From assembly GCF_025869515.1 (NCBI RefSeq), contig NZ_JAOZVR010000016.1, positions 1 to 64,000 on the forward strand: a stretch of 64,000 bases of DNA. The letters run 5' to 3'. Shown in pieces: positions 14,536 to 20,668 of the stretch. The notes beneath the pieces were generated by a model. The model did not search any database and was not told the DNA's origin. It saw nothing but the letters and a program-made list of their open reading frames with translations. The stretch's first letter is position 1. Every line of letters starts with the position of its first letter. Source of the stretch: Ferrovibrio sp. (GTDB taxonomy: Bacteria > Pseudomonadota > Alphaproteobacteria > Ferrovibrionales > Ferrovibrionaceae). A program made the translations under genes and the position numbers.

Positions 14536-15228
14536 TTACGCCGGCAGCGGCAGCATGATCTCGTAGCAGGCGCCGGGTCCGCCGCGGCGGATGTTGAAGG
14601 TGCCGGCCAGCTGCGCCACCAGGCCATGGATCAGTTTCATGCCGAGCCCCGTGGCCGCCTCGGGCTGGGCGGCTTCGGGCAGGCCGACGCCATCATCGCT
14701 GACGGTCAGATACAGCGCGCCATCTTCGCCCTTGCCGCAGGCAATCTCGATGACACCACCATCCTGCTGACCGGGATAGGCATGCTTGAGTGAGTTGAAA
14801 ATGAATTCGTTGACGATCATGCCGGTCGCACTGGCGATCCGCGCCGGAACCCAGAGCGGATCGACATTCACCAGCAGGGCATGACGGTGATGATCGACCA
14901 CAGCAGCAAAAATCTCGTCGCGCAGGCCGGTCAGATATTCTTCAAGTGCCACGATGCCGGTGCCGTCGCCGATCGACAGGCGTCGATGCAACTGGGCAAT
15001 CAGACGCAACCGTTTGCTGGTGCGGGCCAGGGCGTCGCGGGCCTGAGCATCGACGGCTTGCTTTTGCTGCATGTTCAGCAGACTGCTGATCATCTGCAGG
15101 CTGTTGCCGATCCGGTGATCGGCTTCCCTGCGCAGCAGTTCAGACAGCTCGACTGATACCGATGGCGAATCCGTTGCGGAATCGCCGACCGGATGCGGCG
15201 GGAATAATAATGCGGGCCAGGTGCTCAT
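14536..15228 (-). CDS. sensor histidine kinase, HWE/HisKA_2 family (soluble)
   Basis: LLRREADHRIGNSLQMISSLLNMQ (HisKA_2) plus HATPase motifs VNEFIFNSLKHAYP and DDGVGLPE...GLGMKLI. Confidence 0.9.
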   Translation of the reverse strand: MSTWPALLFPPHPVGDSATDSPSVSVELSELLRREADHRIGNSLQMISSLLNMQQKQAVDAQARDALARTSKRLRLIAQLHRRLSIGDGTGIVALEEYLTGLRDEIFAAVVDHHRHALLVNVDPLWVPARIASATGMIVNEFIFNSLKHAYPGQQDGGVIEIACGKGEDGALYLTVSDDGVGLPEAAQPEAATGLGMKLIHGLVAQLAGTFNIRRGGPGACYEIMLPLPA

Positions 15229-16751: not shown

Positions 16752-16999
16752 AACATCATTACAGACTGTTGCAGGCAATCGCCGGACGCAAATCCGGCAA
16801 GAGCTGCCGATGCGGATTTGCCGGGCGGTCCGGAGCATCCGCCACTGCAATCTCCTGAAACAATATCTCTTCGTAAACTCAGCAACTTATTGGCACCGGA
16901 CAATGGCATGCGACTTGATGCAGCTTTTTGCGGAGATATGGCAGCAGCCGTCGGCCGCATGCCACCTCCATATCCGCAATGACTTCGAAGGAGGTCCGT

Positions 17000-17581
17000 A
17001 TGAGTAGCATTGGCGGTGTCGGTTCCGGCACCAATCCACTTCAGCAGGCCATGCGCCAGCTGTTTTCCAAAAGCGACGCCAATACCGATGGCAAACTGGA
17101 TACCAGCGAGATCAGCTCCCTGCTCGACACGCTGCAGAGCGGTTCGTCCGACAGCAGCCTGACTTCGGACGGCATCGTCTCGGCTTTCGACACCGACGGC
17201 GACGGTGCCGTATCCGGCTCGGAATTCGATGCCGGATTCAAGAAGCTGGGCGAGCAGATGCACAGCACCATGCTGGCCATGCAGGAAAGCGGCCAGATGC
17301 CGTCGCCCCCACCGGGTCCGCCGCCCGGCATGTCGGGCGACAGCGCATCGGATGACGATGAGGATGATGACACCTCGACCGTTGCCACCCTGCTCGACCT
17401 GCTGCAGAGCTATAGCAGTGAGGAGACGGAGGATACCGCCTCCAGCAGCGACAGCACGACGACCACAACCGACACCCTGCTGCAGACCTTCCTTGGCCAG
17501 CTGGAGCAGTATGCCAGACAGCAGGATCGCCTGTCGGCATACCAGTCGCAGTATGGTAGCGGGGTATCTGTGTCGGCCTGA
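17000..17581 (+). CDS. EF-hand domain-containing protein
   Basis: Two EF-hand loops DANTDGKLDTSE and DTDGDGAVSGSE; GGAGG RBS before ATG at 17000. Confidence 0.88.
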   Translation: MSSIGGVGSGTNPLQQAMRQLFSKSDANTDGKLDTSEISSLLDTLQSGSSDSSLTSDGIVSAFDTDGDGAVSGSEFDAGFKKLGEQMHSTMLAMQESGQMPSPPPGPPPGMSGDSASDDDEDDDTSTVATLLDLLQSYSSEETEDTASSSDSTTTTTDTLLQTFLGQLEQYARQQDRLSAYQSQYGSGVSVSA

Positions 17582-17643: not shown

Positions 17644-18726
17644 CTAGATTTTCAGATTGGTATAGCTGGCATTGCCCAGTCCGGTGCCGATGGTCAGAGC
17701 AGCCCAGCGCCCGACATCGCGCATGCGCCAGACCTCGCTCAGACCCTGGACCACCGCGTCGTTATGCAGTGCGATGCTGATGCTGTGCCCGCCGATGCGC
17801 GGCAGGCGTTCAAAGAGTGCCTCTGTGAGGTTGAAATCCTCGCCTTCCCAATTGCCCGGCAGATTCTGCGCGCCGCGCTTGATCCAGCCGTCATCGGCAA
17901 TCAGGCCGGGGCAACCGACCGCGATCACCGGCGCCAGCCGAAGTTTCTTCCTGGCTGCATATGCGGCCAGCTCGCGCATCATGCCTCCTAGATGGTCAAT
18001 TGCTTCCTCGCGTCCCGGCCGTTCGTCACGATGCCGCCAGTGCAGCAGGCGCTCGACACGGGCGGTATCGCCCAGTCTATCCTTGCGGCGGATTGTCACG
18101 ATACCGCAGCGCAGGTTGGTGCCACCGATATCGATGGCGAGAAAGCCATCGTGGTCGTGCATGACATCAGGTGCCAGCAGTTGCAGTCCGCCGATCAGGC
18201 CGGCCTCGTCGGGGTGGTGCGCCAGCGGCACCATTCCGACATCGAGATCGGCCTGCCGCAGCAGAATCGCCGAGCGCAGGATGGCGATCTCGCCCACCCG
18301 GCTGCGCCGCAACCCGCCGCCTACACCGATGCGCTGCACACCGCGCCATGTCTGCTGGCGCAGGAAACGCTGCGCCACGGCCGACAGGTTCTGCGCAAAT
18401 TCCTCTATGGCACCCTGTACGATCGCGGCGGCGCCCAAGTCGTCGCCGGTGAGGATCCCATCGAGTTCAGCTTTCGACAGGTCGGCGTGCGGCGCCGTGT
18501 CCGCCTCAACCGCGTCGTCGGCCTCCTTGCGGATTTCGTCGAGCAGTCGGCGGAAGGCACGGCCACTGGCCTTATCGCCGATGAATCCCCCGGCGTCCCG
18601 CAGTTCGAGATTATAGCTGTCGACATGCACGGCCGGCAGGTCGGCGGCACCATGGTGCGGCAGCGCAGCCGGTTCGCCGGTGCGGCCGTTATTCCGTTTG
18701 ATCTTCCTTGCAGAGTCTGCCGCCAC
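17644..18726 (-). CDS. ROK/hexokinase-like sugar kinase with apparently circularly permuted domain order
   Basis: N-terminal half contains the distal ROK region (GDKASGRAF..., QRIGVGGGL); C-terminal half contains phosphate-1 (FLAIDIGGTNLRCGIV) then GCPGLI and phosphate-2 (LTIGTGLGNASYTN) just before the stop. Confidence 0.75.
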   Translation of the reverse strand: MAADSARKIKRNNGRTGEPAALPHHGAADLPAVHVDSYNLELRDAGGFIGDKASGRAFRRLLDEIRKEADDAVEADTAPHADLSKAELDGILTGDDLGAAAIVQGAIEEFAQNLSAVAQRFLRQQTWRGVQRIGVGGGLRRSRVGEIAILRSAILLRQADLDVGMVPLAHHPDEAGLIGGLQLLAPDVMHDHDGFLAIDIGGTNLRCGIVTIRRKDRLGDTARVERLLHWRHRDERPGREEAIDHLGGMMRELAAYAARKKLRLAPVIAVGCPGLIADDGWIKRGAQNLPGNWEGEDFNLTEALFERLPRIGGHSISIALHNDAVVQGLSEVWRMRDVGRWAALTIGTGLGNASYTNLKI

Positions 18727-18768
18727 ATCGCCCTCTTGATCTGGAGGACGGACAGCGCCCTCGGCTGA

Positions 18769-19089
18769 TCAACGTTCGGCACGTGCCAGCAGTGCCATAA
18801 GGAAATAGGCCAGGACGGCAAAGCCGAGACCGGGCAGCAGTATATTGCTGGCCACGAACCCCCAGTCGATCCCGCAGCCGGTGGGAATGCCACTGCCCCG
18901 GCTCATGTCGATGGGAATCAGGCCGCCGTTCGGTATTGGGTGGCACAGCCCCATCGGCTCGTAGCCATGGGTACGCAGCATCAGGATGGCATACAGCAGC
19001 ACCGGCAAGCCAAGGCCGGCCACCAGGCTGGTCATGATACGGCCAGCCACGCTGCGGGGCCGGATCACTCTGGATAAACGCGGCAGCAC
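18769..19089 (-). CDS. hypothetical membrane protein
   Basis: Hydrophobic segments; same strand as neighbours. Confidence 0.5.
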   Translation of the reverse strand: MLPRLSRVIRPRSVAGRIMTSLVAGLGLPVLLYAILMLRTHGYEPMGLCHPIPNGGLIPIDMSRGSGIPTGCGIDWGFVASNILLPGLGFAVLAYFLMALLARAER

Positions 19090-19168: not shown

Positions 19169-20668
19169 CTATCCGGCGGACAGTGCGATCCGCGCCCGGG
19201 TCACTGTACAGTCCCGGTCACCGGCGGCATCCACGGTCAGCCAGGCCGATTCCGTCGCCGCAGGCGGTTCCAGATGCTGCGCCTGCCACTGCACCACGGC
19301 TTCGTTGGCATCCGAGGCGTCGCCGCGCCGGCCGGCAACGCGCTGCGCCAGCACATCCAGCGGCGCCGTGAGCCAGAGGCCGGTGAAGCGTACCGCGCAA
19401 GTTTCCGCGACCCCGGCGACGCCGCGCCGTTCGTCAGGTCGGCCGAAAACCGCATCCAGGACGACGCTGTTGCCGTCCCGCAGCAGCAATGCCGCTCGGT
19501 GCAGCAAAGCCGCATAGGTGCGCTGGCTCGCCTCCGGCGTGTAGGTGTCGCGCGGCAGCGGCTGTGCCAGCGGCACGCCCAGCAGCTGCTTGCGCAACAC
19601 GTCGCTACGCAGCAGCACGCCGCCCCAGGGATAGCCGCCCAGATCGGTCGCCAAGGCACGGGCCACGGTGGTCTTGCCGGTGCCGGAGAAGCCGCCAACG
19701 GCCGCCAGGCGGACACCGCTGGATTGCAGGGCCCGTTGCGCGAGGGCCAGATAGCGCGCTGCCTCGTCGCGGCCTGCCGGCGTCATCGCCGCGATATGGC
19801 AGCGGATCGCGGCACGGAGCGCGACATAGAGCGGCAGCAGGTCGAGACCGGCATAGTCGCCGCTGGCTTCCAGGTAACGGTTGAGCGCCAGATTGGCCAG
19901 GTCGGCGCGATCATGCTGCAGCAGGTCCATCAGCAGGAAGGCAAAATCGTAGAGCGTGTCGATCTCGGCGAAACCGTCATCGAATTCGAGGCAATCGAAC
20001 AACACCGGCTTGCCATCGATCAGCGTGATATTGCGCAGATGCAGGTCGCCATGGGCATGGCGCATACGTCCGACGAAACGGCGCTGTGCCAGGCTGTCGC
20101 GCCGGCGGTTGCACTCGGCCGCCAGTGCGGTGTGAAAATCGGCCAGCGGCGCAGTCGGCAGGGCATCGGGGGCGAGCCGGTCGAAGGCGGCCCGGTTCAG
20201 TTCGATCGTGCGGGCAACGCTTGCCGCGGCGTCGACATCCACATGCGCGGCGCCGGCATGGAAGGCGGCGATGGTATCGGCCAGTGTTTCGACCAGCGCC
20301 GGCGTCAGGCAGTTCTGGGCGGCAAGCTCGTCGAACGTGGCTGCGGGCGGAAATCGCCGCATTTCGACCAGCCACTCCACCGGGTCGCCCTGTGCCGACA
20401 GGCTCAACCGGCCGGTGCTGTCACGGCAGACCGGGCGGCAGCCGAGATAGAGGGCCGGCGCTGTGCGGCGATTGAGCGCCACCTCGCGTTCGCAGGCGAC
20501 GCGCCGCTGCTCCAGACTGCCGAAATCGACATAGGGCAACGTGACGGCCTTCTTCAGCTTCCAGGCCCGGTCACCGGTGAGGAAGACGCGCGAAATATGC
20601 GTCTCAATCACCTTGTCGGGCGGCGGATCGAACAGGTCTTCGATATCGGCAGGATTGGGCTCGGTCAT
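19169..20668 (-). CDS. bifunctional aminoglycoside phosphotransferase-like / AAA ATP-binding protein
   Basis: HGDLHLRNITLIDGKPVLFDCLEFDD (phosphotransferase) followed by AAVGGFSGTGKTTVARALA (P-loop). Confidence 0.88.
   Translation of the reverse strand: MTEPNPADIEDLFDPPPDKVIETHISRVFLTGDRAWKLKKAVTLPYVDFGSLEQRRVACEREVALNRRTAPALYLGCRPVCRDSTGRLSLSAQGDPVEWLVEMRRFPPAATFDELAAQNCLTPALVETLADTIAAFHAGAAHVDVDAAASVARTIELNRAAFDRLAPDALPTAPLADFHTALAAECNRRRDSLAQRRFVGRMRHAHGDLHLRNITLIDGKPVLFDCLEFDDGFAEIDTLYDFAFLLMDLLQHDRADLANLALNRYLEASGDYAGLDLLPLYVALRAAIRCHIAAMTPAGRDEAARYLALAQRALQSSGVRLAAVGGFSGTGKTTVARALATDLGGYPWGGVLLRSDVLRKQLLGVPLAQPLPRDTYTPEASQRTYAALLHRAALLLRDGNSVVLDAVFGRPDERRGVAGVAETCAVRFTGLWLTAPLDVLAQRVAGRRGDASDANEAVVQWQAQHLEPPAATESAWLTVDAAGDRDCTVTRARIALSAG

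Follow-up and report, generated by a model that had tools for sequence, protein, structure and literature searches.

A ROK-type kinase gene of Ferrovibrio sp. probably encodes a natural circular permutant conserved across Pseudomonadota

We analysed a 64,000-nucleotide stretch of Ferrovibrio sp. DNA (contig NZ_JAOZVR010000016.1; hereafter the window), and describe here a gene on its minus strand at positions 17644-18726, which encodes 360 amino acids from a GTG start codon (18724-18726) to a stop codon included in the range (17644-17646). The product is probably a ROK sugar kinase of the ASKHA fold that has undergone circular permutation in nature; it would bind Mg-ATP, phosphorylate a sugar-like hydroxyl and, in relatives, be linked to EcfG. 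Profile comparison, a rotation scan and structure prediction agree on the circular permutation.

The initial annotation, made from the sequence alone, claimed that the motifs of a ROK kinase occur in this open reading frame in distal-first order, and every peptide that it quoted was located, in a single copy and in the order claimed. The segments run from the distal half through phosphate-1, CPG and HND to phosphate-2 at the extreme C-terminus. The N-terminal half (residues 25-190, positions 18157-18654) corresponds to the C-terminal half of a canonical ROK protein, approximately residues 141-306 of 3vgk, and carries the VGGG adenosine motif (residues 135-138, 18313-18324), the GGG of which (136-138) is invariant in an alignment of 38 family members. 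At the junction (residues 180-194, 18145-18189), the canonical C-terminus (GLIGGLQLLAP) is joined to the canonical N-terminus (HDGFLAIDIGGT). The C-terminal half (residues 191-358, 17653-18156) corresponds to the canonical N-terminal half, approximately residues 1-142. Alignment and motif regular expressions place in it the DIGGT phosphate-1 motif (residues 199-203, 18118-18132) and CPG, the GxPG counterpart (residues 272-274, 17905-17913). The alignment also places HND there (residues 321-323, 17758-17766), with an invariant Asp matching the ROK catalytic base, as described for Plesiomonas shigelloides NagK (PsNagK; PMC10031466). The GTGLG phosphate-2 motif (residues 347-351, 17674-17688) lies 9 residues short of the C-terminus. 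All these features are on the minus strand. The Pfam ROK match (PF00480) is confined to residues 196-358, equivalent to positions 2-142 of the 294 in the profile (E 3.2e-6); its 27.3 bits exceed the curated cut-off of 22.9 over half of the profile only. Residues 1-190 match no Pfam family.

The family profile, built from the window protein and 37 homologues up to about 55% diverged, was compared with 38 canonical ROK proteins from Pseudomonadota using hhalign. In the native order, two separate matches were obtained, the C-terminal half aligning to ROK positions 7-139 (P 4.8e-13) and the N-terminal half to positions 196-302 (P 1.1e-8). In the rotated order, a single match covered 284 columns and ROK positions 7-302 (E 2.7e-18). 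When the alignment was rotated in 20-column steps, with an additional cut at residue 191, the score reached its maximum at residue 191 (137.6); the unrotated alignment scored 86.5, and column-shuffled profiles did not exceed 23. Profiles were needed for this result, as rotating the single window sequence extended its Pfam and Protein Data Bank (PDB) sequence matches little beyond phosphate-2. The full-length AlphaFold2 model was confident over both halves (predicted local distance difference test (pLDDT) 89.7, predicted template modelling score (pTM) 0.88). Residues 191-358 of the model superpose on the first 142-150 or so residues of ROK proteins (2yhy, Z 13.4, root-mean-square deviation (rmsd) 2.0 over 147 residues; VIA-align), and this half was also aligned to residues 2..142 of 3vgk_B. 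The initial annotation had placed the cut directly after phosphate-2, a position that we can refine to the large-lobe turn linking strands beta-2 and beta-3, where the new termini lie in the model; the old termini are bridged by about 10-15 residues. We propose that the ancestral N- and C-termini, adjacent on the small lobe, became joined by this short linker while the chain was opened at the beta-2/beta-3 turn, and that the permuted polypeptide, as predicted in silico, would fold into the usual two-lobed kinase.

Homology searches were carried out within Pseudomonadota. They recovered more than 40 full-length homologues of the same order (44-82% identity) from many Alphaproteobacteria and from non-alphaproteobacterial families, and motif regular expressions found the permuted order in 37 of the 38 aligned sequences. 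Translated-nucleotide (tblastn) and genome searches found such proteins in genomes or metagenome-assembled genomes (MAGs) of Ferrovibrio, Reyranella, Enhydrobacter and Xanthobacteraceae. Among 385 sampled alphaproteobacterial species genomes, 17 contained a homologue, one of these matches being weak. Genome searches extended the distribution to several large genera and to non-alphaproteobacterial families; the weak matches of that search, mostly open frames of 308-358 amino acids, resemble canonical ROK proteins. Homologues were also present in 205 plasmid records, mostly of Rhizobium and Sinorhizobium and including S. meliloti pSymB, and where annotated they are labelled 'ROK family protein'. 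The residues invariant in the alignment are H25, D51, E108, W127, G136-138 and D173 in the N-terminal half, and D199, G201-202, CPG, QNLPG, HND, QGLS and GTGLGNA in the C-terminal half. A reordered five-sequence profile, searched against 240 alphaproteobacterial genomes, found no close homologue in canonical order: apart from two weak matches, the permuted family was matched solely as two pieces in swapped order. The rearrangement is real, old and common to many rhizobia and other Pseudomonadota. A few copies appear irregular. L032 (G295:C38:1908-2186) is a second, short copy in its genome, lying in a 116-amino-acid frame and covering query residues 265-358 only, and L025 and L026 each contain one in-frame TAG stop, which may reflect decaying copies or sequence errors.

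The catalytic Asp, phosphate-1, phosphate-2 and GGG are retained in all 38 sequences. N322-D323, the counterpart of N516-D517 in GNE, is likewise invariant. Mutation of D6, T10, T132 or D105 in PsNagK is known to abolish or lower activity (PMC10031466). By position and invariance, these residues correspond to D199 (a metal site), T/S203, T348 and D323, respectively, of the permuted protein, and this match to residues required for activity favours an active kinase. Judging from the conserved residues, Mg-ATP would most likely be bound through DIGGT, GTGLG and GGG, and Asp323 would act as the base for phosphorylation of a hydroxyl on a sugar or sugar-like acceptor. One possible alternative is that the protein keeps the ROK fold as a catalytically idle sugar sensor or stress regulator. 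ROK includes repressors, expression in relatives looks stress-linked (see below), and two substrate-side motifs, ExGH and the zinc motif, have been lost. We regard this alternative as unlikely, since the catalytic Asp and both phosphate motifs are invariant across so diverged a set and a Pfam search found no DNA-binding domain in the window protein.

The lost motifs bear on the substrate. The zinc motif GHx9-11CxCGx2G(C/H)xE has been called characteristic of all ROK members, and together with ExGH it accounts for three of five contacts to the sugar in GNE (PMC2742894). Regular expressions found the zinc motif in none of the 38 permuted sequences, as compared with 36 of 38 canonical controls, and the window protein contains no Cys ahead of residue 207. 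The ExGH string (E566 and H569 in GNE) occurs in 1 of the 38 permuted sequences, again as compared with 36 of 38 controls. In their place the family shows HG..LP.V.(D/E/T).(Y/F)(N/S).E, which in the window protein reads HG..LP.V.VD.YN.E (residues 25-41, 18604-18654, minus strand) where a canonical protein has its AGExGH sugar/zinc segment. With these contacts missing, the acceptor is not inferable from ROK relatives. The initial annotation had spoken of a ROK/hexokinase-like kinase; the fold and catalytic core bear this out, and the substrate part of the description does not carry over. The protein is homologous to ROK kinases, but since linear order, the zinc motif and ExGH all depart from ROK, we prefer the name 'permuted ROK-type kinase' and do not class it as an ordinary member.

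The absence of the zinc motif is shared with polyphosphate glucokinase (PPGK)-like proteins, as is the motif ND-A-x-x-QG, and we therefore considered whether the protein is a permuted member of the PPGK branch that uses polyphosphate as donor. The best PDB sequence matches include the polyphosphate/ATP glucomannokinase 1woq, whose phosphate-1 to phosphate-2 half matches closely (27% identity), and the C-terminal half reaches a score of 90 with PPGK-like proteins (32% identity over 132 columns), in a comparison that is noisy with four template sequences. However, the N-terminal half fails to align to the PPGK-like set, yet its alignment with ordinary ROK proteins runs from end to end. 1woq and its kin also differ in their canonical order, their shorter distal part and a PHxELAHHP segment absent from the permuted family, and the NCBIfam model for polyphosphate glucokinase (NF045942) gave 17.3 bits, below its cut-off of 250. 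The donor is not readable from sequence, and on balance we doubt this assignment.

It may also be argued that only the C-terminal half derives from ROK, the N-terminal half being a domain of other origin that was added to it, with another protein supplying the true distal lobe. The Pfam blank over residues 1-190 and the small gain from rotating a single sequence agree with such a scheme. The sequential structure search with the full model aligned mainly the C-terminal half to ROK, so the N-terminal half was modelled and searched alone; that model was of medium confidence (pLDDT 73). Its residues 12..160 nevertheless superposed on residues 141..306 of 3vgk_A (Z 9.1, rmsd 3.3, 135 residues; VIA-align), and a further match covered residues 143..280 of 5nck (Z 8.4). 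The top six rows of the search were all ROK proteins, matched in their C-terminal halves over ranges that abut those of the C-terminal half of the window protein (at ROK residue 141/142 or so), the Z values alone being modest. Each half of the protein thus superposes on the opposite half of ROK, and both lobes of the ROK fold appear to be present in the predicted models. Together with the hhalign match of the N-terminal half, the end-to-end alignment of the whole rotated family and the confident full-length model, this makes an unrelated N-terminal half very improbable. The initial annotation had named two outcomes that would refute it, a predicted structure that fails to match ROK after permutation and close homologues of canonical order; neither was observed, the latter within the 240 genomes searched.

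An assembly error, a frameshift or a fusion of two separate genes merely looking permuted, for which nothing but the odd order itself speaks, is already refuted by the same single-frame order in isolates and MAGs of independent origin, complete plasmids and single-contig genomes among them, and by the single copy of each motif, which also upholds the earlier claim of a permutation rather than a two-kinase fusion. Differences from close homologues concentrate at the third codon position; between the window gene and L003, those at positions 1, 2 and 3 number 43, 42 and 141. This excess at the third position, together with conservation of the protein at 44-82% identity in 37 homologues, establishes 17644-18726 as a real gene. 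The sequence AGAGGG (18731-18736, minus strand), 4 nucleotides ahead of the GTG start, is a likely ribosome-binding site, and a GAGG-type site also precedes the GTG of the homologues at L004 and L011.

The upstream regions of the homologues were compared for stress promoters. The sequence GGAAC-N16/17-[CG]GTT, the EcfG consensus (PMC4814048), was found 89-125 nucleotides ahead of the codon for residue 22 in 9 of 38 homologues, about one being expected from background, and scrambled or mis-spaced patterns gave no match in 38 loci. Some of these loci are close relatives (L018/L019 and L028/L030), leaving about 7 independent cases. The motif was also present in three annotated plasmid loci, of Sinorhizobium meliloti, Bradyrhizobium sp. 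195 and R. binae. The gene otsB adjoins the homologue in three loci, a DUF892 ferritin-like gene lies nearby in four, Hsp20 and Ku/LigD genes are neighbours in some genomes, and in S. meliloti one neighbour is an NAGGN osmoprotectant peptidase gene. In B. diazoefficiens, EcfG controls trehalose synthesis by OtsA/OtsB (PMC8092242). These data make it a reasonable, though unproven, idea that the relatives possess a stress-induced sugar kinase feeding compatible-solute synthesis. In many of them the gene may be expressed from EcfG general-stress promoters, and its product might, speculatively, supply a sugar phosphate when cells face osmotic stress or desiccation, such as glucose-6-phosphate for making trehalose.

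Several points weigh against this reading as applied to the window protein. With ExGH and the zinc motif absent, the acceptor may not be a hexose. No EcfG site was found upstream of the window gene and no NepR in its genome (94.7% complete), so the stress idea is not directly transferable to this gene. Gene neighbourhoods in 29 loci were mostly not conserved; in a search of these for a conserved operon partner, only otsB (3) and DUF892 (4) recurred close by among non-close relatives, the other recurrent clusters including overlapping antisense frames. A bolder hypothesis, which we consider rather improbable, holds that selection favoured the permutation for freeing the large lobe on its acceptor side. 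The outcome would be a stress-induced kinase, widespread in soil- and plant-associated Pseudomonadota, for a substrate not accepted by canonical ROK proteins, perhaps trehalose or a similar disaccharide, or some other compatible solute. If so, a stress kinase with a novel substrate would be hidden under the label 'ROK family protein'.

Some observations on these loci stand apart. In seven loci from g271 genomes lacking the EcfG motif (L020, L033-L035, L037, L038 and L042), a conserved, partly palindromic element resembling CAACNAACGGGTTCCC, followed by GTTGTCC, lies about 60-100 nucleotides ahead of the conserved protein start. SMb20485 was considered as the S. meliloti locus tag of the homologue and rejected, as it denotes a sugar ABC transporter gene.

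The ROK kinases of PF00480, such as hMNK (2yhy), S. griseus glucokinase (3vgk) and F. nucleatum NanK (5nck), share with the window protein both lobes of the fold, phosphate-1, GxPG, the catalytic Asp in ND, phosphate-2, GGG and the C-terminal helix of the small lobe; the window protein differs in its rotation, with new termini after phosphate-2, and in lacking the zinc motif and ExGH. Natural circular permutation is uncommon among multi-lobed, hinge-closing enzymes. The RefSeq and GenBank 'ROK family protein' entries on Sinorhizobium, Rhizobium, Shinella and Bradyrhizobium plasmids are full-length members of the family (46-50% identity), and the permuted order goes unmentioned in them. In the open-access literature, to which the search was confined, no description of a permuted ROK kinase was found, and neither a 2025 review of glucose kinases nor a 2023 mechanistic ROK study (PMC10031466) uses the word 'permuted'. 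The family shows that the two ASKHA lobes can be rotated in order without loss of the catalytic residues, and that mainly half of such a protein is visible to sequential tools such as Pfam and Foldseek. Its large size and its occurrence in genetically tractable rhizobia make its function directly testable.

In the window, the kinase gene appears downstream of two genes on the same strand. The nearer (18769-19089, minus strand), 42 nucleotides ahead of it, encodes 106 amino acids without a Pfam match, and a homologue precedes the kinase gene in the related locus L004. The second (19169-20668, minus strand) encodes a 499-amino-acid putative AAA-domain kinase with a C-terminal AAA_33 P-loop domain, the N-terminal part of which, judged by eye, resembles an aminoglycoside-phosphotransferase-type fold; its homologue occupies the equivalent position in L004. 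About 2.4 kb from the kinase gene lies a gene for a small HisKA_2/HWE histidine kinase (14536-15228, minus strand), of a class that is frequently an input to the alphaproteobacterial stress pathway. A gene convergent with that of the ROK-type kinase encodes a 217-amino-acid EF-hand protein with a low-complexity tail (16928-17581, plus strand).
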